From NCBI RefSeq assembly GCF_024362485.1, contig NZ_CP101456.1, positions 3,224,001-3,288,000 on the forward strand: 64,000 bases of DNA, written 5' to 3'. Shown piece after piece: positions 3,907 through 53,908 of this stretch. A program made the position numbers and the translations under genes. The notes beneath the pieces are model-generated. The model was not told the DNA's origin, searched no databases, and saw only the letters and a list, made by a program, of their open reading frames with translations. The number at the start of each line of letters is the position of its first letter. Positions within the stretch are counted from its first letter, which is position 1. This DNA is from Natronobeatus ordinarius. Its GTDB lineage: Archaea; Halobacteriota; Halobacteria; Halobacteriales; Natrialbaceae.

Positions 3907-4018
3907 ACCGTTTCTCCTCGGGGGCCGAACGTATGGTGGTTGTGATCGGTGAGCTGTCTGGTCGTCGATGTGACCGGAAAATCCTGCCGCGGCGAGTGTC
4001 GGATAGAACCCGTCACAC

Positions 4019-4026
4019 TTCTATAC
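4019..4026 (+). promoter_or_regulatory. TATA box of the FAD-protein gene
   Basis: The sequence TTCTATAC lies 23-30 bases before the ATG at 4049, the usual distance in haloarchaea for a leaderless transcript. No Shine-Dalgarno sequence precedes the ATG, which agrees with a leaderless mRNA. Confidence 0.5.
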
Positions 4027-4048
4027 CTCCCCATCACAACGACCGCCC

Positions 4049-4831: not shown

Positions 4832-4886
4832 CGCTCGCTCGCCTACCTGACCCCTTTTTACCCCCACCGCCCCAACGTGGGGGCGA

Positions 4887-9717: not shown

Positions 9718-10674
9718 ATGAGTCTTCGACGATTTATCCTGAAGCGGTTGCTGCTAGTCTTCCCGATACTGTTCGGTGTCTCAGTGATTACGTTCGCGCT
9801 CGTTCACTGGACCCCCGGCGACCCGGTCCAGCAGATGGTCGGGCTGAATCCGGACATGACACCCGCCGAAGAGCAGGCGCTCTACGACCGGTACGGTCTG
9901 AACGACCCAATGTACGAGCAGTATCTGACCTGGATGGGCAACATCCTGACGGGGGACTTCGGAGAGATGTACAGCTCCGGACGTGACGTCGGCACTATCG
10001 TGTGGTGGCGGCTGCCCGAGACGATCGCGCTCGGGATCTTCGGCTGGGCGTTCGCCCTCGCCATCGCGATTCCGTCCGGGATCTACGCAGCAGTGCACAA
10101 GGACGAGCTGGGCGACTCCGTCAGCCGATTCCTCGCCCTGTCCGGTATCTCGATTCCGAACTTCTGGCTCGGGCTGATCCTGATCCTGGTGTTCGGGCTC
10201 TATCTGGAGTGGTTTTCCGTGACGGCGCCGTCACGGGAACCGCTGTACAGCCCTGCAATGTTGTACTACCTCATCTTACCCGGGATCACGATCGGGACGG
10301 CATCGGCGGCGGCGCTGATGCGAGTCATGCGGACGTCGATGGCAGAAGAGATGAACAAAGAGTACGTGATGGCAGCCAGGGCCAAGGGACTACCCGAGCG
10401 GACCATCGTCCTCAAACACGTCCTCCGGAACTCGCTGATCTCGGTCGTCACGATCGCCGCGCTCCTGACTGCGAGCATCATCAGCGGCTCGGTCGTCGTC
10501 GAGTACGTCTTCAACTGGCCGGGTCTGGGCCGTGAGTTCATCGAGGCGTTGACTGCACACGAAATAGACATGATCATGGCGATTACGCTTATCACCGGTA
10601 CGGCGATCATCATCGCGAACCTGATCGCCGACATCGCCTACGCGGTTCTCGATCCAAGGATTCGATATGACTAG
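9718..10674 (+). CDS. ABC permease, DppB type, system 1
   Basis: First integral membrane subunit of the importer; 318 residues with about six transmembrane helices. It starts MSLRRFILKRLLLVFPILFGVSVITF, the typical DppB/OppB N-terminal helix. The ATPase-docking EAA loop appears as AARAKGLPERTIVLKHVLRN near 220-240, and the family C-terminus ADIAYAVLDPRIRYD is intact. It lies 38 bases after the binding-protein gene, and its end overlaps the next permease start by eight bases. Confidence 0.93.
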   Translation: MSLRRFILKRLLLVFPILFGVSVITFALVHWTPGDPVQQMVGLNPDMTPAEEQALYDRYGLNDPMYEQYLTWMGNILTGDFGEMYSSGRDVGTIVWWRLPETIALGIFGWAFALAIAIPSGIYAAVHKDELGDSVSRFLALSGISIPNFWLGLILILVFGLYLEWFSVTAPSREPLYSPAMLYYLILPGITIGTASAAALMRVMRTSMAEEMNKEYVMAARAKGLPERTIVLKHVLRNSLISVVTIAALLTASIISGSVVVEYVFNWPGLGREFIEALTAHEIDMIMAITLITGTAIIIANLIADIAYAVLDPRIRYD

Positions 10675-11716
10675 ACAGACTCACACGCAGCGAGGGCGAA
10701 TTCAGATCACCGGGTTTGACCCCGACGTAGTCGAACGACGAGATCCACTCTCCGACTGGGCTCCCGACACGGGGGCGGAAACCGAGAGTCGATGGATGCG
10801 CGCATTCCACCGGTTCACCCGTAACCGGTCGGCACTCGTCGGCGTCGCCATCGTCGGGCTGCTCAGCCTGCTGGCGATCTTCGCCCGGCCGATCGTCCTC
10901 TTCGGAATCCCCGTCCAGCCGTTCGCGCTCGCACCGTACGAGGCTGGGACCACGCTGTACCTCTCCGTGGATCCGTCGGTACGCGCCTACGATCCGCCCT
11001 CGAGTGACTACTGGTTCGGCGTCGACGGCAACGGTCGCGACATGTTCTCGCGCGTGATCTACGGCGGGCGGTACAGCATCTCGATCGGGTTCGTCGTCGT
11101 TGCGCTCACGATGGTGTTCGGAATGATCTACGGCAGCATCTCCGGGTACTACGGTGGCCTGGTCGACGAGGTCATGATGCGCATCGTCGACACGCTGTAC
11201 GCGTTCCCCGGACTCGTCCTGGCGGCGATCATCGTCACGCTCTTTGGCGGTGGCTACTGGCAACTCGTCGCTGCGTTTTCGCTGGCGGGCTGGATCGGAT
11301 ACGCGCGTATCATGCGCGGTGAGGTGTTGAAGATCAAGGAGATGGAGTACGTCCAGGCGGCGAGAGCGCTCGGCGCACGGGACCGATCGATCGTACTCCG
11401 CCACGTGACGCCAAACGCGATGTCCGCGGTGATCGTCGTCGCGACGCTCAACATCGGGACCGTCGTGATCGGCGTCGCCGCGCTCGGCTTCCTGGGCCTG
11501 GGTATGCCGCCGGGCTCGGCCGAGTGGGGGACGATGCTCGATCAGACCCGTGAGACCCTGATCCAGGGGCCGGGCGGGCAGATCCCCTGGCACGCGACGA
11601 TCTTCCCCGGCGGAGCCATCTTCCTGTTCGTGATGTCGATGAACATGATCGGTGACGGGATCAACGACGCCCTCGACGCACAGGAGAGCGGCGTCTCCCA
11701 GGGAGGTGCCCAGTAA
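10667..11716 (+). CDS. ABC permease, DppC type, system 1
   Basis: Second integral membrane subunit, 349 residues. A hydrophilic N-terminal region of about 45 residues precedes FTRNRSALVGVAIVGLL, the usual DppC first helix (NxxA motif). The EAA loop is AARALGARDRSIVLRHVTPN near 225-245. The C-terminus MSMNMIGDGINDALDAQ matches the 'lGDglRDalDP' end of DppC proteins. Its stop overlaps the first base of the dppD start codon, so translation is coupled. Confidence 0.93.
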   Translation: MTRQTHTQRGRIQITGFDPDVVERRDPLSDWAPDTGAETESRWMRAFHRFTRNRSALVGVAIVGLLSLLAIFARPIVLFGIPVQPFALAPYEAGTTLYLSVDPSVRAYDPPSSDYWFGVDGNGRDMFSRVIYGGRYSISIGFVVVALTMVFGMIYGSISGYYGGLVDEVMMRIVDTLYAFPGLVLAAIIVTLFGGGYWQLVAAFSLAGWIGYARIMRGEVLKIKEMEYVQAARALGARDRSIVLRHVTPNAMSAVIVVATLNIGTVVIGVAALGFLGLGMPPGSAEWGTMLDQTRETLIQGPGGQIPWHATIFPGGAIFLFVMSMNMIGDGINDALDAQESGVSQGGAQ

Positions 11717-12789
11717 TGGCGCTGCTCGAGGTAGAGGACCTGACCGTCCGGTTCTACACCGGTGACGGCGTCGTTACCGCGGTCGACAACCTCTCGTTCA
11801 GCATCGACCGCGGGGAGAAGTTCGGCGTGGTCGGCGAGAGCGGTGCCGGCAAAAGCGTCACCGCGCTCGCGCTGATGAGACTCATCGACGAACCGGGGCA
11901 GATCGAGAGCGGGACGATTCGATTCAAAGGCGAGAACGTCCTCGACATGTCAGAAGAGGAGGTTCGAAACATCCGCGGGAACGAGGTCGCGATGATCTTC
12001 CAGGACGCTCAGACCGCCCTCAATCCCGTCTACACCGTCGGCGAGCAGATCGCAGAGACCATCCGACACCACCTCGGCTACGGAAAGGAGGAAGCTCGAG
12101 AGCGGACCATCCAGCTGCTCGATCAGGTCGGCATTCCCGAAGCGGAAATGCGGTACTCCGACTATCCCCACGAGTTCTCCGGCGGAATGCAACAGCGAGC
12201 CGTCATCGCGATGGCGCTGTCGTGTGATCCTGACTTGCTCATCTGTGACGAGCCGACGACCGCGCTCGACGTGACGATCGAGACGAAGATCCTCGACCTG
12301 ATCAGAGAGCTCGCCGACGAGTTCGACACGGCGGTTCAGTTCATCACCCACGACCTCGGCGTCGTCGCCGAGCTGTGTGACCGCGTGATGGTGATGTACG
12401 CTGGCAAGCCGGTCGAGAAGTCGACCGTCGAAGAGCTGTACTACGATCCGAAACACCCCTACACGGTCGGATTGATGAGTTCGATCCCGCGAATCGGCGA
12501 TCAACGCGAACGGTTGCAAACCATTCCCGGGACGATGCCTGACCTGGTCGAACTCCCCTCGGGTTGTAGCTTCCACCCGCGGTGTCCGTACGCCGAGGAG
12601 GCCTGTGCCCGGAAAGAGCCCCAACCGTTGAATCCGGAGACTGGACTGCCGGTCACCGATTCGAACGAGCGGAGTGCAGCGTGTCTCGCACACTCCGGCG
12701 AGCTGGAGAACGAACTCGGCTACGAGGTCGTCGTCTCCGATCCGGAACCAGAAGAGGTTGCCAAACCGATGGAGGGAGAACATGAGTAA
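11716..12789 (+). CDS. ABC ATPase, DppD/OppD type, system 1
   Basis: One of the two cytoplasmic ATPases powering import; 357 residues. Walker A GESGAGKS is at 40-47, the signature FSGGMQQR at 154-161, Walker B LLICDEP at 174-180 and the H-loop THDL at 211-214. The C-terminal oligopeptide-transporter domain has the regular cysteine set C284, C290, C297 and C323 (C-x5-C-x6-C), which in studied DppD proteins can bind an iron-sulfur cluster. It overlaps the dppF-type gene by eight bases. Confidence 0.94.
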
Positions 12790-17479: not shown

Positions 17480-18681
17480 CGGCCACCTCGCGGGTCGAGG
17501 GCGTCCCTGAGGCCGTCTCCGACGAGTTTGAACGAGAGCATCGTCGCCGTGAGCGCGATGGCAGGAAGGGTCGAAACCCACCAGAGCTGGTAGGCCGGGT
17601 GCTCGGCTCTGTTCTGCATCTGCCCGGCGACTTCGGCGTTCACCGACTCGCTGATAATACTTCCCCACGAGTACAGTTCGATATGGTGAAAACCAAGGAA
17701 CGCGATGCCGGCTTCGAACAGGACGAGGAGCGCGAGTAGCTGGAAGACGGCTGGAACCAGCGTGTTCGTAATATTCGGAACGATGTGACGGCTGGCGACG
17801 TACCGGTCGGATGCACCGAGACTTCGGGCGACCCGAACGTGTCCGTTTTCGCGACGCTGGAGCACCTCGCTTCGAACCAGTCGGGCAATTCCACCCCAGC
17901 TCAGTAAGCCAAATGCACCGATCAAAAGCAGCAGTGACGGATTCCAGTACGTGTATCCGACGAAGTAGACCAGGATGGCAGGGATAGATAACTGGACGTC
18001 GACGTAGGACATCAGCAGGCTGTCGACGACGCCGCCACGAAGCCCGGCGACGACACCGACGGCGGTCGCCAGCGGCACCACGAACGCGGCAGTGATGAAC
18101 GTGACGTAGAGCGCCGTCCGGGTGCCCTGAACCAGCAGGAATCCCATCGGATGCCCTCGTTCGTTCGTCCCGAGTGGATACGTCCACGAGCCGTGACACT
18201 GCCGTTCGAACGGCGGTCCGGTGACTTCGCCGACGCACTCGATCCGGACGATTTCGCTCGTAAATCCGACGGGTGGATGGAACGCGTGGTGAAACCGCAA
18301 TCCAGGGTTTGAAACCAGCATCGGTCCGACAAACCCGACGACGACGAAGACGATGAGGTAGCCGAGCGCCCCCACGGTGATCGGCCGCGAGCGCAATCGG
18401 CCGAGAACGCGTCGAACCGAGTCACGCCGCTTGCACAGCGGCACGACGCCGTATGCGACCAGCACCACGGTCGAAAGCATAAAAATCCAGTCGATAGGCT
18501 CGGTTCGCCACGTACCGACGAGGTAGACGTGGGCGACGTGTCGATCGTACAGATACAGCGCAGTGACTGCCAGGATTCCGACGAGAAGCGCCACCCGTTC
18601 GGCCGTTACCACCCCTCTCGAACGGTCGATCTCAGACCAGTTGACGCGCTCAAATCGCGCGTCTTCATCGCCTCTACTCAT
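17476..18681 (-). CDS. ABC permease, DppC type, long form, system 2
   Basis: Membrane subunit of 401 residues, longer than the usual 290-350. It has two extra N-terminal hydrophobic segments (about 26-46 and 64-82) before the ordinary DppC helix near 100-125. A large extracytoplasmic loop at about 130-180 holds two cysteines (RIECVG and RQCHGSW) before YPLGTNERGHP, the region that precedes the transport core in this family. The EAA loop is ARSLGASDRYVASRHIVPN. The C-terminus KLVGDGLRDALDPRGG is typical. The same long architecture is found in system 3, so the two are likely related by an old duplication. Its dppB partner lies divergently. Confidence 0.92.
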   Translation of the reverse strand: MSRGDEDARFERVNWSEIDRSRGVVTAERVALLVGILAVTALYLYDRHVAHVYLVGTWRTEPIDWIFMLSTVVLVAYGVVPLCKRRDSVRRVLGRLRSRPITVGALGYLIVFVVVGFVGPMLVSNPGLRFHHAFHPPVGFTSEIVRIECVGEVTGPPFERQCHGSWTYPLGTNERGHPMGFLLVQGTRTALYVTFITAAFVVPLATAVGVVAGLRGGVVDSLLMSYVDVQLSIPAILVYFVGYTYWNPSLLLLIGAFGLLSWGGIARLVRSEVLQRRENGHVRVARSLGASDRYVASRHIVPNITNTLVPAVFQLLALLVLFEAGIAFLGFHHIELYSWGSIISESVNAEVAGQMQNRAEHPAYQLWWVSTLPAIALTATMLSFKLVGDGLRDALDPRGGR

Positions 18682-18990
18682 GGAGGACGTCCGACGTGAT
18701 GAGCGTAAGTATGATAAACATTACCTTCGTATCGTGTTTACATCAGTGGATCAACCAGTGCGCTTTTATAAATGTATGCGAGTACAGCACAGTATGCCCT
18801 CCGCCACGTCTCGTAGCGGTATCGACGTTGGACCATATCGGTCCCGCCGGGGAGGACACGTTGACTGGTCCCAACGACGCACCAACGCGGTCACCCGCGG
18901 CCACCAGTTTCGGCGCGATTCACACCGTTCACGCCGGTTCGCATACCCCACGTCACCGTCGGGCGACTGGCATCGGTCACGGGTGAACCG
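18682..18990. promoter_or_regulatory. divergent promoter region between dppC and dppB of system 2
   Basis: This 309-base gap serves two divergent genes. On the plus strand TTTTATAAAT begins at 18764 and is the only strong TATA box before dppB, which would give dppB a leader of roughly 190-200 bases. GGGTGA just before the ATG at 18991 is a Shine-Dalgarno, as expected for a leadered mRNA. On the minus strand GTTTATC near 18713-18719 is a possible TATA box for dppC. No credible open frame was found in the leader. Confidence 0.5.
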
Positions 18991-19935
18991 ATGAGCGTTC
19001 TCGGGCTCTTTGCAAAGCGGATCGCAGTCGGCCTCTTCTCGGCATGGGTAGTGTTGACCACCGTCTTCGCGGCGATGACGATGACCGACGACTGGGTCGC
19101 TCAAAGCATCGAAGGAATGCTCCGATTCGGGAACGCGAGCGAAGAAGAGATCGAACAGGCGCTCAACGCGTATATGGCCGATCGCGGGTACGATCGCCCG
19201 CTGTACGAACAGTACGTCGACTGGATGGGGAACATGCTCACGCTCGAGTGGGGCGACTCGCTCGTCTCCGGGGAACCCGTGACGGCCCTCGTCGTCGACG
19301 GCGTCGTCCGAACGGGAATGTACGTCGTTCCTGCACTCGTACTCGGTGTGTGCATCGGCATACTCGTCGGACTCTACGCAGCGGTCGCCCCGAAAAGCCG
19401 GGTTGCGAACCTCGGGCGTGGAACCGCGTACCTTCTGTTCGCGTTGCCGAGCTTCTGGCTCGGTGGGTTCTGCGTCGCACTCGTCAGAGGCGGGGTGATC
19501 GATCGACCCGACCTACTGTTCGACCACGGATTACCGATCCTGTTCATCACGATGACGCTCCTCGGCGGGTACGTGAGCTATACGCGGGCACACGCGTTGG
19601 AGTACACTTCGACCGACTTCGTCGCACTCGTCAAAGCCAAGGGGGCAAGTCCACTGCTCGTCACCCGGCACATCGTCCGAAACGCGGCGATTCCGCTCTT
19701 CTCGATGCTGTTCACCGAGGTGCTCGCGTTGCTCGTCCTGGCGGTGTTCGTCATCGAGATGCTCTTCGCGATCGACGGATTCGGGTTGTTGTTCCTGCAA
19801 GCGGTGATGCACCGCGACTTCCCGATCGTCCTCGGCGGGACGATCGTCGTTATCGTGCTCGGCGTGGTCGGCAGCATCGTTCAGGACCTGTCGTACTCGT
19901 ACCTGGATCCCCGGGTGGACACCGGTCGTCGGTGA
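18991..19935 (+). CDS. ABC permease, DppB type, system 2
   Basis: Membrane subunit of 314 residues with about six transmembrane helices, starting MSVLGLFAKRIAVGLFSAWVV. The large loop contains ALNAYMADRGYDRPLYEQYVDWMGN, typical of DppB. The EAA loop is VKAKGASPLLVTRHIVRN near 212-230, and the C-terminus QDLSYSYLDPRVD matches DppB ends. It is divergent from dppC-dppD-dppF, whereas most such operons keep dppB before dppC on one strand. No binding-protein gene accompanies system 2. Confidence 0.92.
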   Translation: MSVLGLFAKRIAVGLFSAWVVLTTVFAAMTMTDDWVAQSIEGMLRFGNASEEEIEQALNAYMADRGYDRPLYEQYVDWMGNMLTLEWGDSLVSGEPVTALVVDGVVRTGMYVVPALVLGVCIGILVGLYAAVAPKSRVANLGRGTAYLLFALPSFWLGGFCVALVRGGVIDRPDLLFDHGLPILFITMTLLGGYVSYTRAHALEYTSTDFVALVKAKGASPLLVTRHIVRNAAIPLFSMLFTEVLALLVLAVFVIEMLFAIDGFGLLFLQAVMHRDFPIVLGGTIVVIVLGVVGSIVQDLSYSYLDPRVDTGRR

Positions 19936-41905: not shown

Positions 41906-42664
41906 TCACCGTCGAGCGTCGCCGTCGAGTCGCGGCCGAAACACCTCGGCGCGGGCGTCCGTGGAGACGCCGTAGGCCGCGTCCGCGACGGTGTCGGGAA
42001 TCGTCGCCTCTGTCTCATCGTACCGGGAATCCAGTGCCGCCTGCAGGGCCTCCCGGACGCAGGCTCGAGTCGCCGCGCCGACGGGCGTCGCACTGCCGGA
42101 GTACGTCTCGCGAGGGCCGTCGGGATCGTGGCCGACGACGATCGCGTCGGTCGTCGTTCCGGGGAAGCCCGTCGTCTCGAGCAGGGTCGTCGCCTTCGCC
42201 TCCGCGGTGACGGCGATCAGGTTCGCCAGCGCGCCAGCCTCGAGCGATCGACTCGTCCCGACGACGAGGTTCACGGTCCCGACAGGTCCGTCGGCGTCGC
42301 TCTGTTCTACGGTTCGCCCGTCGGGTAGTTCGCCGCCTGTCGGGTCCATCGGGAGCGCCGCGGGGTTCGAGACGCCGGCCGTCGCGTAGACCGTCACCGG
42401 GCCACAGCGGGCCCCGCGAGCGTGCTCGAGGTCGACCCCCGTCAGGAGCGTCGGCCCGGGCTCGTCGAAGCCTGCGCGCTCGAGGCGGGCGGGAACGTAC
42501 GCGTCGAGGTCGGCACACTCCCAGCCCTCGGGGACGGAGACGTTGTACGCGCAGTCGGCCGTCCAGCGGCCGCCGTTCCAGCCCGTCGAGAGCCACTCGG
42601 TTCCCGGCCGGCGAACGCTGAGGACGCCGTCGACGCGCCTCGCCGCGAACCCGTCACCGCCCAT
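41906..42664 (-). CDS. cbiZ: adenosylcobinamide amidohydrolase CbiZ
   Basis: Cleaves the aminopropanol side chain of adenosylcobinamide (and some cobamides) to give adenosylcobyric acid, the archaeal route for salvaging cobinamide. The 252-residue protein has the CbiZ core: LLTGVDLEHARGARCGPVTVYATAGVSNPA and GTVNLVVGTSRSLEAGALANLIAVTAEAKAT (shown in short pieces: GTVNLVVG, EAGALANL). No membrane segment. It is the last gene of the seven-gene operon and overlaps the end of cobD by 11 bases. Confidence 0.92.
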   Translation of the reverse strand: MGGDGFAARRVDGVLSVRRPGTEWLSTGWNGGRWTADCAYNVSVPEGWECADLDAYVPARLERAGFDEPGPTLLTGVDLEHARGARCGPVTVYATAGVSNPAALPMDPTGGELPDGRTVEQSDADGPVGTVNLVVGTSRSLEAGALANLIAVTAEAKATTLLETTGFPGTTTDAIVVGHDPDGPRETYSGSATPVGAATRACVREALQAALDSRYDETEATIPDTVADAAYGVSTDARAEVFRPRLDGDARR

Positions 42665-43670
42665 CGCACAGCACCTCGAGCAGCCGGTCGTTCGCCTCGC
42701 GATCGTTGACAGCGATCCGAACGTGTGAGTCGAGTCCGCGGAAGGTCCGGGCGTCCCGGAGGGCGATTCCCGCCGCCCGCGAGCGCTCGAGCAACTCGTC
42801 GACGTCGCCGTCGACCGCGAGCAGGAGGTACGGCGCGTCCGAGGGGGAGACCTCGAACGAGGGGTCGGCCTCGAGCGCCTCTGACAGTCGGGCGCGCTCT
42901 CGAGCGACGCGCTCGCGCGTCTCGCGGACGAACGCCGGCTGGCGCATGCAGTAGGCGCCGACGCGTGCGGCGGGCGTCCCGAGGTTCCAGGCCGGACGAG
43001 CGATCGCGAGCGCTCTCCCCAGGTCGCCGGTTGCGACGGCGAAGCCCGCCCGCAGGCCGGGCAGGCCGAACAGCTTCGTGAGCGAGCGGGCGACGACGAC
43101 GCCCTCGCGGCCGGCCATCGACGGCTGGTCGGTAAACCCGAGGAACGCCTCGTCGACGAGCAGCGTCGTCCCGGCCTCGAGACAGCGGTCGGCGAACGCT
43201 ACGAGCCGATCTGGATCGGCCGCTTCGCCCGTCGGGTTGTTGGGCGTGCAGACGACCGCGAGTCGGTAGCGAGCTGGATCGGTGTCGAGTAGCTCGTCGT
43301 GTCTAAAAAAACGCGGCGTCGCTCCCTGTAGCCGCACCTCGCGGGCGTACTCGCCGAAGCTCGGATACGGGAGCAGGACCTCGTCGCCGGGCTCGAGGGT
43401 CGCCTCGAGCGCGAGTCGGATCGCGGCGAGTCCACCGGGGGTGGGGATCACGTCCGCCGCATCGCAGCCGACGTACTCGGCGGCGGCCGCGCGGTAGTCC
43501 GGATAGTCGTCGTCGGGGTAGCGTCGCGAAGCCTCGAGCGCGTCGGCGTAGACCGCCTCGACGCCGTCCGGTATCCGGGGATTGATATTGGCGCTGAAGT
43601 CGAGCACCGACGGATCTGATTCGCCGCCGTGAGGGACCCGCCCACCCGCGCGGATGGCCTCAGGTTCCAT
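42654..43670 (-). CDS. cobD: threonine-phosphate decarboxylase CobD (PLP-dependent)
   Basis: Makes (R)-1-amino-2-propanol phosphate, the linker between the corrin ring and the nucleotide loop. The 338-residue protein is a fold-type I aminotransferase relative. [14 protein letters not shown] is the family N-terminus, TPNNPTG and VDEAFLGF are PLP-site motifs, and [15 protein letters not shown] carries the Schiff-base Lys. It starts at 43670 within an 11-base overlap with cobT. Class I aminotransferases look similar, but the operon context supports CobD. Confidence 0.92.
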
Positions 43671-44691
43671 GGTCGTCTTCCACCGTTCCGACGTCGAGCC
43701 CACCGTCGGGATCGATCCCAAGCCGGTCGCAGACGACCTCGAGTCGGTCTCGAACCGCCCTCATCGCCCCGTCGGGAACCAGCGAGAGCGCCCCACCCAT
43801 CGCGACGCCCTCTTTCGCCTCGCCGGCGCAGTAGCGTTCCATCGCGACGTGCTCGCCCTCGTCGAAGCCGGGGTCGGTGGCGACGACCTCGAGGTCGAAC
43901 CGGTCGGCCGCCGTCTCGAGGTCGGCCGACGGATCGTCCGCGACGAACGAGGTGGTCGCCAGCGTGAGCGGGGCGTCGACCCCGGCGTGGCGCAGCATCG
44001 CGCCGACGGTCACCAGCTGGGTCCCACCGGCGAGCGTCACCGACGTCCCCGATTCGAGCGCGCCCGCGGCGACGCCCGCCACGACAGCCTGGACCGGGTC
44101 CCCGACTCGCCGGACGGCCTCGAGCGGCTCGCCGGCGCAGTCGCCCGGCTCGAGATCGCTCGCGGCGAGCGCCTCGTCGACGACCGCGCGCTTTCGCTCG
44201 AGGGGATTCTCGGGGAGCGACGAGGAGACGCCGAGGGGCTCGCCGAGGGCAGTGAGCACGCCCAGTGCGGTGGTCGTCCCGCCGGGAACGGTCTCGCCGA
44301 TCAGCACCTCGTCGTCGGGGAGGCTCGCGCCGAAGCCGTGGGCGCGGTCGAAGATCGCCGCGGCGTCGGCCACCGCCTCCACCTCGCGGACGTCCGCGCC
44401 GCCGCTGGCGCCGAGGTCGACCGTGGGGGCGGCCGTCGGCTTCGAGAGGCCGGCGTCGAGGGTCACGAAGTCGAAGCCGACGACCTCGCGGACGGCACAG
44501 GTGATCGCCGCGGGCGTCGGACAGCCCGTCGGGCTGACGGGCGTTACGGGCGCGCCAGTCGGCTCGCCGTAGGCGACGATCTCGGCGTCAGCCGAGGGGG
44601 TGTGGGCCATCAGGTCGGGGGCGGCCCCCGCAGCGCTGAGGCCATCGATCAGCGCCGTTTCGGTCGTTCCGGCGGCGAGGATCACTCGCAT
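43660..44691 (-). CDS. cobT: CobT-like nicotinate-nucleotide-dependent phosphoribosyltransferase
   Basis: Archaeal CobT-family enzyme expected to activate the lower-ligand base as alpha-ribotide for the cobamide nucleotide loop. The 343-residue protein has [20 protein letters not shown] near 127-146, [22 protein letters not shown] near 215-236, and [22 protein letters not shown] (shown in short: [10 protein letters not shown]) near the C-terminus, all typical of the UPF0284/archaeal CobT group. Which base it uses is not clear. It overlaps cobY by 10 bases and cobD by 11. Confidence 0.9.
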
Positions 44692-45260
44692 AGTTCCTCC
44701 GCAATTCGTGCGTCTTCACGTCGGTTCACGTTGATCGCCAGTCGTGGATCGTAGCTCACGTACGTCATGTCTGTCACAGAATCGCCGACGACGTTGACCC
44801 CCGTCGGCGTAAGGTGAGGCGAGAAAGCGGTTTCGACGCTCGCCCCGAGGCGTCGTTTCAGCGCGACGGGCACGCAGACCGTCGCCGATTCAGATCCGGC
44901 TTCACGTTGCGCCCGCGTGCGCTCGAGCACGCGATCGACGGCCGCTCCCGAGAGCAACGGCAGGTCGGCCGCCACCGTCAGGACGGGCGGCTCGAGCGGA
45001 CCGTCGAGCGCGACCAGCAGGTCGTTCACGTAGCCCTCGCCGGGCGTCTCGACGGTCGTCACCCGTGGGCCGGCGACGAGGTGCTCGCGCGTCTCCGGCG
45101 CGTTCGGCGAGACGGCCGCGTAGATCGTCCCGACGCGGCTCGCACGGAGCGCCTCGAGCACCCGGTCGACCATCGGCGTCCCGCCGATCCGGACGAGGGG
45201 CTTTTCGCGATCGGCCTCGAGGCGGGTACCCTGACCGCCACACATCACCAGCACGTCCAC
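44682..45260 (-). CDS. cobY: adenosylcobinamide-phosphate guanylyltransferase CobY
   Basis: Archaeal GTP:adenosylcobinamide-phosphate guanylyltransferase, the replacement for bacterial CobU. The 192 residues start at a GTG (45260), giving [20 protein letters not shown], the nucleotidyltransferase signature GGx[13 protein letters not shown] is the metal-binding Asp motif. The GTG start was preferred over a later ATG at 45245 because it restores the first beta strand. It overlaps cobS by 16 bases and cobT by 10. Confidence 0.92.
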
Positions 45261-46027
45261 GCGATCACCCCCATGTGGACGCCGAGGAGGCGCCCGAGTT
45301 CGTTCGCGGCCCCGAAGACGTCGCCGGTGACGCCGCCGAGATGGACTCGTGCCCAGGCCCAGGGGAGCGCTCCCCCGAGGACCGCACCGGCGAGGGCGGC
45401 CGCCGCGGCCGGGTGCGGCCAGGTGAGGGCGACCGCAGGGAGTGTGAGGATAACTGGGAGGACGACGGCCGACGGGCCGACCGCGCTCGTGACGCTCGAG
45501 CCCATGCCCTCGTGGACGGCGGTGCCGACACACGCCAGGACGGCCATGCCGAGCTTCGCGCCGACCTCGGCCGCGACGGCGACGCCGACGGCGACGAGGA
45601 CGGGCAGCCCCGCCAGCCCGAGGCCGCCGAGGGCCAGGCCGACCACGACGAGCGAGACGGCGAGCAGCGCGCCGACGCCCGTCGTCGTGTCCTTCAGTAC
45701 CTCCCGCCGTCGCTCCGCGTCGCCGTGGACGACGAGCGCGTCGCCGAGGTCGGCCACGCCGTCGAGGTGGTGGATCCCCGTCACGAGGTAGACGGCGAGG
45801 AGGTAGCCCAGCGCGACCGTCGGCGCAGGGAGCGTCCCGATCGCGAGCAGAGAGACCGCCGCGAGCGCCCCCGCGACGAGACCGACGACGGGGAACGCCC
45901 ACGGCGACGACCGAAACGCCTCCCAGTCGCCATCCCGGCTCCGCGTCGGCAGGCGCGTGAGGAAGGCGAACGCCCCCCGGAGCGCGGCCACTGGTCGGCT
46001 CACGGGGCCATCCCCTGTTGGGCTCAC
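45245..46027 (-). CDS. cobS: adenosylcobinamide-GDP ribazoletransferase CobS
   Basis: Integral membrane enzyme that joins the activated corrin (AdoCbi-GDP) to the alpha-ribazole lower ligand. The 260-residue protein has FAFLTRLPTRS at the start, the active-site GIHHLDGVADLGDALVV (Asp-rich), a stretch of about five or six transmembrane helices, and a [10 protein letters not shown] tail. A GTG at 46027 is coupled to the end of cbiB in a GTGA overlap, and a second GTG at 46003 is a possible alternative giving 252 residues. Confidence 0.9.
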   Translation of the reverse strand: MSPTGDGPVSRPVAALRGAFAFLTRLPTRSRDGDWEAFRSSPWAFPVVGLVAGALAAVSLLAIGTLPAPTVALGYLLAVYLVTGIHHLDGVADLGDALVVHGDAERRREVLKDTTTGVGALLAVSLVVVGLALGGLGLAGLPVLVAVGVAVAAEVGAKLGMAVLACVGTAVHEGMGSSVTSAVGPSAVVLPVILTLPAVALTWPHPAAAAALAGAVLGGALPWAWARVHLGGVTGDVFGAANELGRLLGVHMGVIAWTCW

Positions 46028-46953
46028 GGAACCACCTCCTGGCCGGCGACGAGGACCGCCGCGAGCGCAACGGCGAGCCAGCCCGCCCGCCCGACGATGC
46101 CCACCGCTCGCTCCCCGTCGGCGACCGTCGGAAATTCGGCACCCGCGTTCAGGACGTACGCCCCTCGTTTCTCGAGTCGAACGCCGAGCGCGCACGCGAG
46201 CGTCGCCATCGGCCAGCCGGAGTTCGGCGAGGCGGGGACGCGTGCCCACTCCCGGGCGCGCTCGAGCGCCCGCGAGTCGGCCGCGGCGAGGGCGATCAGG
46301 AGGGCGGCGATGCGGGCTGGGAGCCACATGACGATATCGTCGAGCCGGGCGCTCGCGGTCCCGATCGGCTTCGAGCGGTAGCCGAGCATCGAGTCGAGCG
46401 TGTTGACGGCTTTCACCCACGCGGCGACGGCCGCCGCGGCGGGCAGCGAGATCGGCGCGAGGATCGCGAACGGGAGTAGCGCCGCGACCAGGCCGTCGGC
46501 GAGGTTCTCCCCCGCGCTCTCGACGGCGGCGCTTCGAACCTCGGCCGCCGAGAGCTCGCTCGCGTCCCGACCGGCGAGCGCGAGCAACGCCTCGCGTGCC
46601 GTCTCGAGGGCGGCCTCGGTCGCCTCGACCACCGTTCGGGTGGTCTCGAGCAGCATTCGGAGACTGATCGAGGTGAAAAGGACGAGCGCCGCGGCGAGTG
46701 CGCCGGCGAACGGGTGGACCGCGCCCGCGGCGAGGACGACGAGACCGGCGACCGCCGCGGCCACCAGGGGAAGGGAGGCAGCGATGGCGACGCCGACCAG
46801 GCGCTGGCCGCGCTCGCTCTCGGTCCACTCCCGATCTGCGGCCCCGACGAGCGAGCCGAACCACGCCACCGGGTGGAACCGGTTCGGCGGCTCGCCCACC
46901 AGCCGGTCGAGGCCGAACGCGATGGCGACGACCGCGAGCGCCGTGGTCGTCAC
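46024..46953 (-). CDS. cbiB: adenosylcobinamide-phosphate synthase CbiB
   Basis: Membrane enzyme attaching aminopropanol (phosphate) to adenosylcobyric acid. The 309-residue protein begins with a helix and LDRLVGEPPNRFHPVAWFGS, the CbiB signature. Further motifs are SAGENLADGLVAALLPFAI, VKAVNTLDSMLGYRS and RLDDIVMWLPARIAAL. About five transmembrane helices are predicted. Its stop overlaps the GTG start of cobS by four bases. It lies 22 bases after the HAD gene. Confidence 0.94.
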   Translation of the reverse strand: MTTTALAVVAIAFGLDRLVGEPPNRFHPVAWFGSLVGAADREWTESERGQRLVGVAIAASLPLVAAAVAGLVVLAAGAVHPFAGALAAALVLFTSISLRMLLETTRTVVEATEAALETAREALLALAGRDASELSAAEVRSAAVESAGENLADGLVAALLPFAILAPISLPAAAAVAAWVKAVNTLDSMLGYRSKPIGTASARLDDIVMWLPARIAALLIALAAADSRALERAREWARVPASPNSGWPMATLACALGVRLEKRGAYVLNAGAEFPTVADGERAVGIVGRAGWLAVALAAVLVAGQEVVP

Positions 46954-47895: not shown

Positions 47896-49206
47896 ATGTC
47901 AGCTTCCCCATCGATCCACGTCACCAGCATCGACGCGACCGGAACCACCCTCGAGTGTAAAATTCGCCCGTCGCCCGACCTGCGACGGTTCTTCACCGGT
48001 GAGCCGTTCCGGACGAGCTACGACGTCCCGATCGAGGACGTCCCCGAGGGCGTCCTCGCGATCCCCGTCCTCGCCCACATCTGTCCCCTCGCCTGGACGC
48101 AGGGGGCGGACGTCTACGTCGAGGAGGTCGACGCGACGTTCGCCCGCGCACTCGAGGACGTGAAGGCGACGCTGCTCTCGATGTACCCGCACTTTCTCGA
48201 GGGCGGCCAGCTGAAGGCCTGCCGGACCGTCGAGGTCGCGCCCGAGGGTGGCGGCGAGAGTGGCCTGCTCTTTACCGGCGGGGTCGACTCGACGTCGTCG
48301 TACGTTCGCCGCCGCGAGGAAGAACCGACGCTGATCAGCGTCCGCGGGTGGACGATCACGCCCGACGCGAGCGACGACGGGAAGTGGGCCGATCTCCGCT
48401 CGCGCGTCTCGGGATTTGCCGACGAGCGCGGCCTCGAGACGGCGTTTCTGGAGTCGAACATGCTCTCCGCCCTCGACCACCCCATGGTGCTCGCCCACTT
48501 CGGTCACCTGGTCGACGGCGGCTGGTACAGCTCCGTCGGCCACGGGCTGGGACTGCTCGGTCTCTGTGCGCCGCTGGCCCACGCCCGCGGGATGGACGAC
48601 CTGTACGTCGCCGCCACCCACTGGAAGGGCGTCGACCTCGAGTGGGGCTCGCGCCCCGACATCGACGACTACGTCAGATGGACGGGAACGCGCTGTCACC
48701 ACGACGTCTACGACCTCACGCGCCAGGAACGGCTCGACCTCATCGCCGACTACGTCGAAACCGAGTCGCCCGACCTGGCGCTCCAGACCTGTAACGCCCG
48801 GATGGACGGCAACTGCAGCCGCTGTGAGAAGTGCTACCGGACGGCGATCGGCCTCCGCCTCTCCGGGCTCGACCCGAACGACCACGGCTACCAGTTCAGC
48901 GACGAGGACTACCCCGAGGTCCGCCGCTCGTTCGAGCGCGGCGAGTGGATCCTCGGCCACGACGAGCGGTACATGTGGGCGGACATCCGGGATCGCGTCC
49001 GGGAGACGGAGCCGTGTTCCGAACTCGAGGCCGAGTTCTTCGACTGGCTCGAGGCCGTCGACCTCGAGGAACTCGTGGCGGCCGGCGAGTCGCCGATCCA
49101 CCACCGGCTCCTCCGGGCGGGGGCGCGAAACGCCCCGAACGGCGTCTACACGACGTTCTACCCCGTCTGGAACGCGGCGAAGACGGGCTATCGACGGATT
49201 CGGTGA
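47896..49206 (+). CDS. PP-loop ATP-pyrophosphatase with QueC-like zinc motif
   Basis: A 436-residue soluble protein of unknown specific function. Residues 1-120 are a separate N-terminal region without recognised motif. LLFTGGVDSTSSY at 124-136 is a PP-loop, which binds ATP and activates a substrate by adenylation. LAHARGMDDLYVAATHWKG near 227-244 is the usual following block. C299, C307, C310 and C313 (C-x7-C-x2-C-x2-C) reproduce the zinc site spacing of QueC. The protein is almost twice QueC's length and lies in a surface-glycan-like cluster, so a queuosine-precursor role is doubtful. A glycan- or cofactor-modifying ligase is an alternative. Confidence 0.7.
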   Translation: MSASPSIHVTSIDATGTTLECKIRPSPDLRRFFTGEPFRTSYDVPIEDVPEGVLAIPVLAHICPLAWTQGADVYVEEVDATFARALEDVKATLLSMYPHFLEGGQLKACRTVEVAPEGGGESGLLFTGGVDSTSSYVRRREEEPTLISVRGWTITPDASDDGKWADLRSRVSGFADERGLETAFLESNMLSALDHPMVLAHFGHLVDGGWYSSVGHGLGLLGLCAPLAHARGMDDLYVAATHWKGVDLEWGSRPDIDDYVRWTGTRCHHDVYDLTRQERLDLIADYVETESPDLALQTCNARMDGNCSRCEKCYRTAIGLRLSGLDPNDHGYQFSDEDYPEVRRSFERGEWILGHDERYMWADIRDRVRETEPCSELEAEFFDWLEAVDLEELVAAGESPIHHRLLRAGARNAPNGVYTTFYPVWNAAKTGYRRIR

Positions 49207-49210
49207 CCGA

Positions 49211-50803
49211 TCACTCCATGTAGCCCAGCCCCTTCAGCCGATCCTCGACGTCGGAGAAATCGTCGTCGACCGCTTCGTCCTCGCCAGCGCGGGAGACGTC
49301 GACGCGCTCGACTTTCGAGGTTGCCGGCCTCGAGTCGCTTCGGAAGGCGTCGAAGAGGACGCGTCCATCAGCGTTCGCGGGAACGGGCTCGCCGATGCCG
49401 TGTAAGAGCGTGGGGGCGACGTCGACGACGCGGGCACTCCGGAGTTCGGCGCCGGGGTTGATCGAGGGGCCACGACAGAGCAGGACTCCTTCCGGTCGGT
49501 GGCTCGCCTGGTACGTACCGGTGTCGCCGAACGGGTCGTCGCTGATGGCACTTCGGGTCTCGTAGGTGCCACAGCCGTTGACCACGAGGTCGGGCGAGCC
49601 GTCGTCCGTCGGAAACAGGTCGTCGCCGTCGTACACCGTGAGGGCCGGTTCGTTCGATCCGGGTTCGGTGACGGACTCGAGGAGGTCGACGAGTTCGGCC
49701 TTGATTTCGGGGACCTTCTCCGGCGGAACGGCCCCCTTCTCGAAACGGTCGCTGTCGTTGACGTAGAGGCCGCCCGCACCGTGGACGAACGCGATCGTGC
49801 GCTCGTAGTCGACGTCGTACAGCTCGTGGTCGCCCGGGATCTGGGAGGCGACAGAGTCGATCACCGACCGCGGGAGCTTCGAGACGAGCAGTTCCTCGGA
49901 GACGCCCACCGCGTCCAACGCGTTCACGATCGAGTCCCGCGAGATGCCGAGGCTCGCCAGCGCCCCGCGGGTCCCCTCGTCATCCCGGCGGACCAGGTAG
50001 CCTTCCTGCTCGAGGAAGTGATTGGTGTAGACCAGTCGATCGATCGGGCCGAAGCCGTGGTCGGAGACGACGTAGAGATCCGCGTCGTGTGCCTCCGTGT
50101 ACTCGATGACTTCACCCACGATCTCGTCGAGTTTCCGGTAGTGTGTGAGCATCGGCCCGTCCTCCCAGAGCAGGTGCTGGAAGCGATCGGGTTCGGTGAA
50201 GACGAAGAAAAAGAGCTGCCAGTCGTCGGTTCGCTCCATCAGCAACTGCATGAGTGCGCGACGGTTCTCGAGCATCTCGTCGACGGCGAGTTCGAACTCC
50301 TCGAGCCGGCCGGCGTACTCCGGGTAGTCGAGGCTGATCTCGTACTCTGGAATCTCGGCCTCGATCTCGTCGGCGAGTTCCGTCGGGTGCGTAAAGTCCT
50401 CGCTCGTCGAGGGAGTCATCATTCCCGAGACCAGTTCGCCGTCGATTTCCGTCGGTGGGTAGGTCAACGGTACGTTTCCGACGACCGACGGCGAGAGCTG
50501 CTCCCAGAGGGGCGACTGTTTGCAGTCCCGGCTGGTGTACATTCGATGGGAGTACGACGAGGAGAGCTTCTGGAAACTGTAGATCCCGTGCTTGTCGGGC
50601 CAGACGCCGGTGGCGATCGAGGGCCAGGCCAGCGGCGTCGTCGGCGGCCGGGTGCTATCGAGCGGTCCGGACGCCCCCTCCTCGCGCAGCCGCGCGAAGT
50701 TGGGCAACTCGCCCGCGTCGCTCCATCGCTCGATACGACTCCACGGCACGCCGTCGAGTCCGAGCACGAACGCTCGCCCGGACTGGGGGATAGATCCGCT
50801 CAT
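49211..50803 (-). CDS. alkaline-phosphatase-superfamily protein (type I phosphodiesterase/sulfatase-like)
   Basis: A 530-residue enzyme. VLGLDGVPWSRIERW at 13-27 holds the first metal Asp, and RPPTTPLAWPSIATGVWPDKHGIY carries the nucleophile-type Thr (shown in short: TTPLAWPSIATG). FTEPDRFQHLLW and VVSDHGFGPID give the other Asp/His ligands, and the later GTYQASHRPEGVLL completes the metal site. This matches archaeal phosphodiesterase/phosphomutase-type proteins often found in surface polysaccharide clusters. No signal peptide is present, so it probably acts in the cytoplasm. It converges with the PP-loop gene (four bases apart). Confidence 0.88.
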   Translation of the reverse strand: MSGSIPQSGRAFVLGLDGVPWSRIERWSDAGELPNFARLREEGASGPLDSTRPPTTPLAWPSIATGVWPDKHGIYSFQKLSSSYSHRMYTSRDCKQSPLWEQLSPSVVGNVPLTYPPTEIDGELVSGMMTPSTSEDFTHPTELADEIEAEIPEYEISLDYPEYAGRLEEFELAVDEMLENRRALMQLLMERTDDWQLFFFVFTEPDRFQHLLWEDGPMLTHYRKLDEIVGEVIEYTEAHDADLYVVSDHGFGPIDRLVYTNHFLEQEGYLVRRDDEGTRGALASLGISRDSIVNALDAVGVSEELLVSKLPRSVIDSVASQIPGDHELYDVDYERTIAFVHGAGGLYVNDSDRFEKGAVPPEKVPEIKAELVDLLESVTEPGSNEPALTVYDGDDLFPTDDGSPDLVVNGCGTYETRSAISDDPFGDTGTYQASHRPEGVLLCRGPSINPGAELRSARVVDVAPTLLHGIGEPVPANADGRVLFDAFRSDSRPATSKVERVDVSRAGEDEAVDDDFSDVEDRLKGLGYME

Positions 50804-51061
50804 GATTACAGGTCACGTTCGAGGCGTCGGCGACGCCCGCTGTCGAGGCAGTGGAGCGATTCCCGCTTTGTTATGGATCGTGTGCACGCCAACAATCCTC
50901 ACTGACAGCAGACAGTGACACGGACCGACCGATCGACCCGGCCGCTCGAGCTGACGCGATCGGCCCGCTCGACCGTCCGCCAGGGGCCAAAAGGAGGCCA
51001 TAACAATACCCGCACTGGAAATACGTCGCGGCATGACAAACGGCGATGCGTGGGGGGTATC

Positions 51062-52009
51062 GTGGGTAGCGTAGTCATCTCGCTCGACGCCGAACTCGGC
51101 TGGGGCTTTCACGACTTCGCCGAGCCGCCGACCGATCGCGTCGAGAGCGGCCGCCGCGGCTGGACGACGTGTCTCGAGCTCCTCGAGGCGTTCGACGTCC
51201 GCGCAACGTGGGCCGTCGTCGGCCACCTCATGCTCGAGTCGTGTGACGGCGAACACGCCGACCACCCGGCTCCCGACGGCTGGTTCGACCGCGAACGGAC
51301 GGAGTGGCGCGACCGCGAAGACCTCCGCTTTGGCCCCGATCTCGTCCGGGCGATCCTCGAGTCAGACGTCGACCACGAGCTCGGCAGTCACTCGTTCTCA
51401 CACGTCCTCTTTGGCCACCCCGATACCACAGACGAGCTCGCCCGGGCCGAACTCGAGCGCTGTCACGAACTCGCCGCCGAGTGGGAGCTCGACCTCGAGT
51501 CGTTCGTCTACCCCCGGAACGACGTCGGTCACCGCGACGTCCTCGCCGAGGCGGGTTTTTCGGCCTATCGAGGGGTCACCCCGACGCCGGACGGTCCCCG
51601 TGGCGTCCTCGAGACGGTCGTCAGCGGCCGATCGCTGCTCGTCGAACCGTCCGTCGACGAGCACGGGCTGGTGAACGTTCCCTCCTCGACGTTCCTGTTC
51701 GGCTTCGAGGGACCGTTACGGACGGCCGTCGAGTCCGTCTGGGAGGACCCGATGGTCGCGATGGCCCGCCGTGGGATCGACCAGGCCGCGGCGAACGAGG
51801 GCGTCTTCCACGTCTGGCTCCACCCGAACAACCTCGTCGACGAGCGCGACGACGAGCGGCTGCGAGCGATCCTCGAACACGTCGCCCGGCAGCGGCGCGA
51901 GACCGACCTGACCGTCGAGACGATGGGCGACGTCGCCCGCCGAGTGCGATCGAACGCGAGGACGGATCCTAACGTGGCCGCCCCAGGTCGGCCGTCCCTC
52001 GCCGAGTGA
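51062..52009 (+). CDS. NodB-type polysaccharide deacetylase
   Basis: A 315-residue enzyme likely removing N- or O-acetyl groups from a glycan. VVISLDAELGWGFHD holds the catalytic Asp; HELGSHSFSHVLFGH has the HSxxH metal motif (Asp-His-His metal triad); SFVYPRNDVGHRDVLAEAGF is the later RxxD-type motif. The GTG start at 51062 was chosen because it gives the beta strand just before the first motif; the longer upstream frame is Arg/Thr-rich and unlike a protein. GGGGGGT a few bases upstream could be a weak ribosome site. Divergent from the phosphatase-type gene. Confidence 0.85.
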   Translation: MGSVVISLDAELGWGFHDFAEPPTDRVESGRRGWTTCLELLEAFDVRATWAVVGHLMLESCDGEHADHPAPDGWFDRERTEWRDREDLRFGPDLVRAILESDVDHELGSHSFSHVLFGHPDTTDELARAELERCHELAAEWELDLESFVYPRNDVGHRDVLAEAGFSAYRGVTPTPDGPRGVLETVVSGRSLLVEPSVDEHGLVNVPSSTFLFGFEGPLRTAVESVWEDPMVAMARRGIDQAAANEGVFHVWLHPNNLVDERDDERLRAILEHVARQRRETDLTVETMGDVARRVRSNARTDPNVAAPGRPSLAE

Positions 52010-52055
52010 GCACTCCCGTCGATCGAAAGAGCGTCGTAGGGTCTCCATACCGCGG

Positions 52056-52973
52056 TCAGGCGACCCGTTCGTACACCTCGAGCAGCCGACCCGTGGTTCG
52101 GTCGAGGCTCACCTCCCGGACAGCCTCCCGGCCGTTCGATCGCTCGCCCGACTCGAGCACCTCGGCGAGCCCCGTCACCAGCTCCCGGTTCGACGTGGCG
52201 ACCCGCGAGGGCGAGACGCCGGCGAGGCGTTCGCGCACGTCACCGACGTCGACGGCGACGACGGGGAGGTTGCACGCGAGCGCTTCCTTCACGGAGTTTG
52301 GCGATCCCTCGCTGTGTGAGGTCAACAAGAGCGCGTCGGCGGCGTTCATGTAGTCCGAGACGGCGTCGTGGTCGACGCCGTAGACGGTCTGTAAGCGCAC
52401 GGGACGCTCGAGCATCCCGTCGACGGCGTCGACCACGCGTCTCGCCCGCGGGTAGTTTTTCAGCTCGCGTTCGGGCGAGTAGGGAAACAGAACGTGGTAC
52501 TCGTCGGCCGCCCAGCCGACGGCCGCTCGCGCCGCCGACTGCGAGGTCGGCGCGAACCGCTCGAGGTCGACCCCGTCTGGAATCACCGTACACGCCCGGC
52601 CGAGGACGTCGCGCATCTCCGGCGACATGACGACGACCTCGTCGCAAACGCGGGCACAGGCGCGGCTGACGGGTGAGACGGGGCCGTGGAGGTCAGAGCC
52701 CCACAGCGAGAGGACCACCGGGAGCCGAAGCTGGGCCAGCGCCATCGGGGCGGTCGTGCCGTAGTGGGCGTGGACCAGGTCGTAGCCGTTGCGGGACTCG
52801 CCGAGCACCTGGGGGAAAAAGCGGAGGTAGTCGGCAGGGTCGCGCGAGGTCGTCTCGTCGATCTCTCCGGGGACCGAAAGCGTCGAGAACGAGACGCCGC
52901 GTCGCTCGAGGGCGGCCAGCTGCTGAGTCATAAACGGCGCGTCGGCGTTCGCCGTGAGCGTGAGGACCTCCAT
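52056..52973 (-). CDS. GT4-type glycosyltransferase
   Basis: A 305-residue cytoplasmic enzyme that adds a sugar to a glycan or lipid acceptor. The N-domain has DLVHAHYGTTAPMALAQL and VVLSLWGSDLHGP. The C-domain has VIPDGVDLERFAP and LLTSHSEGSPNSVKEALACNLPVVA (shown in short: SEGSPNSVKEALA), the E-x7-E motif of GT-B retaining enzymes. It is convergent with the deacetylase gene and belongs to the same surface-glycan region. Acceptor and donor unknown. Confidence 0.9.
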   Translation of the reverse strand: MEVLTLTANADAPFMTQQLAALERRGVSFSTLSVPGEIDETTSRDPADYLRFFPQVLGESRNGYDLVHAHYGTTAPMALAQLRLPVVLSLWGSDLHGPVSPVSRACARVCDEVVVMSPEMRDVLGRACTVIPDGVDLERFAPTSQSAARAAVGWAADEYHVLFPYSPERELKNYPRARRVVDAVDGMLERPVRLQTVYGVDHDAVSDYMNAADALLLTSHSEGSPNSVKEALACNLPVVAVDVGDVRERLAGVSPSRVATSNRELVTGLAEVLESGERSNGREAVREVSLDRTTGRLLEVYERVA

Positions 52974-53107: not shown

Positions 53108-53908
53108 ATGCCCGACATCGCGATCACCGGTGCGACCGGAAACGTCGGACGGGAGGCGATCGAGGCGTTTCCCGACCACGAGCTGACGCTCTTCTCGCGC
53201 AGCGAGTACGACGACCTCGAGACGACGCTCCTCGACATCAGAAACCGCGAGGAGTTCGTCGACGCGCTCTCGGACGAGGACGTCCTGATCCACCTCGCGG
53301 CGAACCCCTCGCCGGACGCCGCGTGGGACGACGTCTCCGAACCGAATATCGAGGGCGTCTACAACGCGTTCGAGGCCGCCCACCGGAACGACCTCGAGCG
53401 GGTCGTCTTCGCGAGTTCGAACCACGCGGTCAACATGGGCAACGTCACCTCGCCGGTCCGCCCGGAGACGACCGAGGGACAGCCGGCCGTCGTCAGACCC
53501 GACGATCCGCCGAAGCCGGACACCTACTACGGCGTCACCAAGGTCTTCGGCGAGGCGATGGGCTACTACTACGCGAAGCGCCACGGCCTCGAGGTGGTGA
53601 ACCTGCGCATCGGCTGGCTGCTCACCCGCGACGACCTGCGATGGGTCTGTGACGAACGCGACGGCGCCGGCGAACGGTTCGCCCGCGCGATGTGGCTGAG
53701 CCCCGAGGACTGTCGGCGGGTCATCCACGCCGCAGCGACGGCAACGCTCGACGGTCCCATCGTGACCGCCCACGGCATCTCGCGCAACGCCGACCGATTC
53801 CTCTCGCTGACCGAAACGACCCTCGCTCTCGATTACCGCCCACAGGACGACTCGAGCGCGGTGCTCGACGACGCGAGGGGCGGGCGAACAGGACTCGACT
53901 CGCCGTGA
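53108..53908 (+). CDS. NAD-dependent epimerase/dehydratase-family protein, Azf-like
   Basis: A 266-residue Rossmann enzyme of the extended SDR type. IAITGATGNVGREAIEAF is the NAD-binding motif, LIHLAANPSPDAAW follows, and YYGVTKVFGEA carries the catalytic YxxxK. FASSNHAVNMG sits where the Ser/Thr catalytic residue is expected. The whole resembles the haloarchaeal NAD-dependent glucose-6-phosphate dehydrogenase Azf, which belongs to this family. That identity is plausible but unproven here, and a sugar epimerase/dehydrogenase for the neighbouring glycan cluster is an alternative. ATGs at 53099 and 53108 are both usable. Confidence 0.78.
   Translation: MPDIAITGATGNVGREAIEAFPDHELTLFSRSEYDDLETTLLDIRNREEFVDALSDEDVLIHLAANPSPDAAWDDVSEPNIEGVYNAFEAAHRNDLERVVFASSNHAVNMGNVTSPVRPETTEGQPAVVRPDDPPKPDTYYGVTKVFGEAMGYYYAKRHGLEVVNLRIGWLLTRDDLRWVCDERDGAGERFARAMWLSPEDCRRVIHAAATATLDGPIVTAHGISRNADRFLSLTETTLALDYRPQDDSSAVLDDARGGRTGLDSP

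Follow-up and report, generated by a model that had tools for sequence, protein, structure and literature searches.

What would a protein built like QueC do among genes for polysaccharides? The question is raised by positions 47896-52973 of a 64,000-nucleotide stretch of the genome of the haloarchaeon Natronobeatus ordinarius (NZ_CP101456.1, positions 3,224,001 to 3,288,000; hereafter the window), where four genes form two convergent pairs and encode a PP-loop protein that we call P0001, an alkaline-phosphatase-superfamily enzyme, a NodB-type deacetylase and a GT4 glycosyltransferase. Known roles of QueC-type enzymes are the synthesis of tRNA and DNA bases and, as a recent addition, the modification of proteins in defence against phages. 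The initial annotation of the window, whose description of the four genes and their families agrees with the gene coordinates and with Pfam, proposed that P0001 is an adenylating enzyme recruited for the modification of a sugar or lipid carrier. Because P0001 and its archaeal and bacterial relatives lie mostly in surface-sugar clusters, we argue that they probably carry out an ATP-dependent decoration of a cell-surface polysaccharide.

A separate branch of the QueC superfamily

Searched alone against Pfam, NCBIfam, PADLOC and PDB sequences, P0001 finds nothing at E<=1; sub-threshold PDB matches to unrelated proteins were judged to be chance and ignored. Its motifs are nevertheless those pointed out by the initial annotation, namely the PP-loop TGGVDST at residues 127-133 and four cysteines of the QueC class. 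The cysteines C299, C307, C310 and C313 are all invariant in an alignment of 28 homologs; in a set of 15 diverse relatives from archaea and bacteria they are again unchanged, as are G128, G129 and D131 of the PP-loop. The QueC zinc motif is given in the literature as C(x)8CxxCxxC (PMC13329287), whereas P0001 has C-x7-C-x2-C-x2-C; an x7 spacing is, however, also present in 13 of 15 haloarchaeal QueC proteins, and relatives within the family have either x7 or x8.

An AlphaFold2 model built from the 28-homolog alignment (mean predicted local distance difference test score, pLDDT, 89; predicted template-modelling score 0.87) shows the N-terminal ~120 residues, for which the initial annotation had suggested a structure prediction, as a folded alpha/beta domain with pLDDT mostly >90 and not as a disordered extension. 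With this model as the query, the sole PDB match of Foldseek at E<0.001 was QueC (3bl5). Profile comparison with hhalign aligned residues 121-321 of P0001 with the entire haloarchaeal QueC, zinc motif included (E 3.9e-7), and the P0001 family with QatC from residue 68 on (E 1e-7), while QueC and QatC themselves matched each other at E 9e-13; the QatC structure 9zee was absent from the Foldseek matches. A tree of the common core has long branches, and we claim no order of the deep ones from it; a branch with support of 100/100 separates the P0001 family from QueC and QatC. With its PP-loop, a Rossmann-like core and the cysteine motif where the core ends, P0001 belongs to the QueC superfamily, in a clade separate from both QueC and QatC.

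The same fold and zinc motif could be perceived as the mark of a second QueC that makes preQ0 or an amide of preQ0. Yet the genome encodes its true QueC elsewhere, on contig C1 at ~2.50 Mb (2502755-2503384), where it is matched by PF06508 and stands beside PTPS/QueD and a radical SAM protein (QueE) in a canonical queD-queE-queC operon. P0001 is missed by PF06508 at E<=1, and its relatives reach at most 18 bits against a cut-off of 22. The genes that flank P0001 in the window are cobamide and glycan genes, with no queD/queE linkage and no 7-deazaguanine gene among them, as the initial annotation had also stated for queuosine and archaeosine genes. At ~220 residues, QueC lacks the N- and C-terminal extensions that bring P0001 to 436 residues. 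Furthermore, QueC needs its motifs VPxRN and YPDC for activity or for binding the substrate (PMC13329287, PMC13279940); in a joint alignment the P0001 family has HG and [P]WGS[H/R]P at these positions, and the conserved Lys of SKxxI in QueC, or of TK in QatC, is an Arg (R276, invariant in the 15 relatives); these equivalences rest on sequence alignment and not on structural superposition. Loss of the Tyr/Asp pair of YPDC, which holds 7-deazaguanine, argues for a different substrate, and W250 (a Trp in most family members) would suit a sugar ring. With a separate clade and neither deazaguanine neighbours nor the QueC signature residues, we consider a role in the 7-deazaguanine pathway extremely improbable.

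It is also conceivable that P0001 is a sulfur-transferring or other PP-loop enzyme, akin to TtuA, MnmA or argininosuccinate synthase, that lies among glycan genes by coincidence. This would be consistent with weak Foldseek matches to MnmA and TtuA, whereas no match but QueC passed the threshold, the four invariant cysteines are spaced as in the QueC zinc site and are joined by no further invariant pair, and linkage to glycan genes recurs across distant phyla, as described below; we thus regard this explanation as very unlikely.

Recurrent linkage to surface-glycan genes

Archaeal relatives were sought in 149 relative genomes and then in 345 genomes of the phylum. The gene was found in 80 of the 91 sampled genomes of the Natrialbaceae, which we take to be the host family from the named loci, mostly in a single copy; two genera of the family (g7 and g10) consistently lack it. 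Since the homologous open reading frames are mostly 62-80% identical across 25 genera, chance reading frames are excluded. Outside the Natrialbaceae, the 345 genomes contained the gene only in genus g57 and in one other genome, and a plasmid of Halorientalis (Haloarculaceae) carries it as well. A weak match in genome G139 was ignored because it lies in a frame with a stop.

Recurrent linkage to glycosyltransferases, which the initial annotation had proposed as a check, was found in archaeal and bacterial loci alike. In a survey of 26 archaeal loci from 25 genera, which are related to one another so that the counts are not independent events, the P0001 gene was linked to a GT-C glycosyltransferase in 25, to an alkaline-phosphatase-superfamily gene and to a deacetylase in 23 each, to a Gfo/Idh gene in 19, to DUF362 in 16, to an epimerase in 15 and to a GT4 glycosyltransferase in 11. 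The usual order runs from genes for beta-helix proteins (with GNAT and CaiB-like genes) and a polytopic membrane protein to the divergent PP-loop gene, and from there through the alkaline-phosphatase-superfamily, deacetylase, Gfo/Idh/MocA, DUF362 and epimerase genes to GT4, where present. The polytopic membrane protein has no Pfam match, but its model (pLDDT 70) folds as a GT-C glycosyltransferase, with matches to AftA (E 8.6e-5), ArnT and oligosaccharyltransferases. Because the cluster is found on chromosomes in some species and on plasmids of 130-400 kb in others, it has been kept together while moving. ATP-grasp or FemAB-like genes are close by in several loci.

Bacterial relatives, sought by tblastn against plasmids, occur in Priestia (two tandem copies), Pseudobutyrivibrio, Gloeothece, Gemmobacter, Nostoc and Azospirillum, and their profile matches that of the haloarchaeal proteins over 333 columns, the N-terminal domain included (E 1.7e-33). 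A polysaccharide pyruvyl transferase gene lies adjacent to the relative, or at most two genes away, in 8 of the 9 bacterial species examined, with glycosyltransferase genes close by in each of these except Azospirillum; in Nostoc, the ninth species, one copy sits amid genes for glycosyltransferases, a flippase and an O-antigen ligase. The Priestia locus also has genes for GalU and UDP-glucose dehydrogenase, that of Pseudobutyrivibrio an O-antigen ligase gene and that of Gemmobacter a Mur ligase gene nearby.

A plasmid of Priestia megaterium (L138) holds the two tandem relatives (9953-11161 and 11361-12566) and one DUF6395 protein (18555-19871) in a single polysaccharide cluster. DUF6395 (PF19932) matches the cysteine region of P0001 weakly (E ~0.02, below the gathering score) and may represent another PP-loop branch; this lead was followed and then set aside: the domain is essentially absent from the archaeal phylum, only two plasmid records carry a relative, and no literature on it was found.

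No match to P0001 was obtained in phage records. A phage-like contig (L131, IMGVR_UViG_3300025735_000053) does encode, at 3703-4989, a full-length relative that is 32% identical to P0001 and 42% to a Priestia copy. It is a cargo gene with endolysin-like and tail-fibre-like genes on either side, and may serve in defence or in modifying the host surface.

The locus in the window and its flanks

In the window genome the cluster is split between the GT-C and the PP-loop genes, and its halves lie ~1.08 Mb apart, the distant one (GT-C, GNAT, CaiB-like and beta-helix genes, with the usual regulators) on contig C1 at ~2.19 Mb (~2.194 Mb, L173). The window locus (Table 1) is therefore half of the ancestral cluster, placed beside cobamide genes. 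A DUF362 gene was not found in this genome, the best Gfo/Idh match in it is just 33% identical, and the epimerase/dehydratase gene to the right of the four genes differs from the conserved cluster epimerase of other genera. The best start of the deacetylase is a GTG at 51062, which gives 315 residues, MGSVVISLDAELGWG, with an alternative start at 51050; a hydropathy scan of the protein revealed no transmembrane segment.

Table 1. Features of the P0001 locus (window coordinates)
Feature	Position	Strand	Size or basis
P0001, QueC-like PP-loop ATP pyrophosphatase with N- and C-terminal extensions	47896..49206	+	436 aa
PP-loop motif TGGVDST, residues 127-133 of P0001	48274..48294	+	alignments
Tetracysteine motif C299-x7-C307-x2-C310-x2-C313, predicted zinc site	48790..48834	+	alignments
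P0002, alkaline-phosphatase-superfamily (type I phosphodiesterase/nucleotide pyrophosphatase) enzyme	49211..50803	-	530 aa; PF01663 1.2e-41
P0003, NodB-type polysaccharide deacetylase	51062..52009	+	PF01522 2.1e-6
P0004, GT4-family glycosyltransferase	52056..52973	-	305 aa; Pfam GT4-type 6e-10
NAD-dependent epimerase/dehydratase-family protein	53108..53908	+	Pfam; possible cluster member

Genes for cobamide salvage and synthesis (CbiZ, an aminotransferase, a CobY-like NTP transferase, CobS and CbiB; 41906-46953) directly precede P0001 on its left, and genes for a GST-like protein, DUF63 and an AsnC/Lrp-type regulator lie on the right side. Farther away, at 7694-28575, several oligopeptide-type ABC transporter gene sets follow one another, with paralogous permeases and ATPases.

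Proposed chemistry, its alternatives and meaning

PP-loop enzymes use ATP to activate a substrate oxygen, and QueC converts a carboxylate to an amide and then to a nitrile. The analogy makes a sugar intermediate with a newly formed amide or amidine the most likely product of P0001. ATP would be bound at the SGGxDS motif, as in other PP-loop enzymes, and an oxygen of the substrate, belonging either to a carboxylate on the sugar or to an N-acyl carbonyl, would be activated as an AMP ester with release of pyrophosphate. The nitrogen source, which could be either ammonia or a sugar amine that the deacetylase has freed, would then displace AMP to yield the amide or amidine. The substrate may be a cytoplasmic nucleotide- or polyprenyl-linked sugar that is also handled by the neighbouring deacetylase, the epimerase and dehydrogenases, and GT4, after which the adjacent GT-C membrane enzyme would transfer the modified sugar to the outside.

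A precedent for ATP-dependent sugar amidination is offered by the NASAT enzymes (WbpG/WbuX/LpNASAT; TIGR03573; PDB 8WEX), of which WbpG and WbuX convert an acetamido to an acetamidino sugar in lipopolysaccharide (PMC10607449). They resemble P0001 in being PP-loop enzymes with a tetracysteine zinc site that are encoded in surface-polysaccharide clusters; they differ in the arrangement of the site, a CxxC-xn-CxxC located N-terminal to the PP-loop (Cys44/47/79/82; PP-loop 122-127). P0001 matches neither TIGR03573 nor any other NCBIfam model at E<=1, and no NASAT was found in 99 haloarchaeal genomes. The best reading is perhaps that P0001 is analogous to WbpG/WbuX while being of the QueC and not the NASAT type.

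The linked deacetylase also suggests another reaction, in which P0001 would be an acylating ligase that places an amino acid or other acid onto the deacetylase-exposed sugar amine, instead of using ammonia to amidate a carboxylate. The high frequency of deacetylase linkage in archaea, the ATP-grasp or FemAB-like genes near several loci and the Mur ligase gene of Gemmobacter are all consistent with it, whereas no acyl donor was identified and the bacterial loci show no deacetylase; on balance we think this unlikely.

If, on the other hand, P0001 behaved like QatC of the qatABCD anti-phage defence system (NF041925; PDB 9zee) or like Cap9, which both act on proteins with an N-terminal Gly (PMC13279940), its substrate would be a protein of the cluster, such as the deacetylase, whose N-terminus would be conjugated with a carboxylated small molecule, with regulation of the pathway or of a defence response as the outcome. 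QatC, too, has a QueC core with N- and C-terminal extensions (PMC13279940), its profile similarity to P0001 takes in part of the N-terminal domain, and weak QatC matches occur among the relatives (one A1 member, NF041925, E 0.0017; paralog L067, PADLOC QatC, 8e-4). In most loci with a clear start the deacetylase begins with MG[S/T], reminiscent of the MGTS/MGGS substrates of QatC/Cap9. However, haloarchaea in which the PP-loop gene is missing (such as G117, G126 and G142) have deacetylases that begin in the same way; the start is thus a trait of the deacetylase family, lends no support to a protein substrate, and was discarded as a sign of a QatB-like substrate. A conserved N-terminal Gly was seen in none of the other cluster proteins. 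P0001 itself matches neither NF041925 nor the PADLOC QatC profile, the zinc spacing of QatC is longer, its T-x-T substrate residues were not found in the P0001 family alignment, and flanking-gene Pfam scans and the neighbourhood survey revealed no qatA, qatB, qatD or CD-NTase near P0001. Given this dissimilar genomic context and the separate clade, protein modification appears distinctly unlikely.

A haloarchaeal QatC-like protein was encountered in two other loci (L151, 1309-3729, genome G403; L152, genome G038; PADLOC QatC 1.9e-38). In L151 its gene is directly followed by a CBASS-type oligonucleotide cyclase (PADLOC Cyclase 3.4e-81), and near copies (~88%) occur on plasmids of three genera (NZ_CP084470, NZ_CP019286, NZ_CP054589). 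This is possibly an archaeal CBASS with a QatC-type instead of a Cap9-type QueC.

Several observations weigh against a glycan-tailoring role. The alignment of part of the N-terminal domain with QatC, an enzyme thought to modify a protein, is one of them. Pyruvyl transferase apart, the Azospirillum neighbours are no glycan-synthesis genes; a deacetylase gene was not seen in the bacterial loci examined; GT4 is linked in only 11 of the 26 archaeal loci, and the genera behind the linkage counts are related to one another; no glycan gene could be recognised in the 5 kb around either of two 47%-identical paralogs (L068, L070); and the literature found gives no characterised family member and no known substrate or product. 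With these in mind, we give about an even chance to the reading that P0001 represents a QueC-superfamily branch recruited to surface-glycan synthesis as an ATP-dependent amide- or amidine-forming tailoring enzyme. The recruitment proposed by the initial annotation is supported by the recurrent glycan linkage and the separate clade, and neither of the outcomes that it had named as refuting, a place inside true QueC with constant 7-deazaguanine neighbours or a lack of such linkage, was observed, while the exact step that it implied is one that we, too, can only infer; the archaeal and bacterial distribution, the identity of the GT-C neighbour and the finding that only half of the ancestral cluster is present here go beyond it.

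No Pfam or NCBIfam model covers the family, and our literature search found no paper describing it or its cluster. A 2026 survey of PF06508 lists QueC, QatC, Cap9, LarE, a PfkB-linked group, NASAT, GMPS and three small, mostly archaeal clusters (PMC13329287); as P0001 falls below the PF06508 threshold, it is not expected in that set. The family constitutes a new branch within a known superfamily, and its role is probably new as well; we found no earlier description of a surface-glycan function for this branch. More tentatively, with odds somewhat short of even, we propose that surface glycans undergo a new ATP-dependent modification by an unnamed QueC-derived family common to haloarchaea, Bacillota, cyanobacteria and alphaproteobacteria. 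In the most extreme form of this reading, the family could link a sugar amine exposed by the neighbouring deacetylase to a carboxylated small molecule, conceivably even to a 7-deazaguanine acid of the sort that Cap9 couples to proteins.

Taken together, if this proposal is true, cell surface glycans would be a third destination of the QueC scaffold, almost universal within one archaeal family and shared by several bacterial phyla, and proteins that lie outside every Pfam model and are annotated just as ‘hypothetical’ would receive their first testable role. The conserved archaeal cluster, with its GT-C, alkaline-phosphatase-superfamily, deacetylase, Gfo/Idh and epimerase genes, would then offer a ready genetic target for the study of a surface polymer of the Natrialbaceae.

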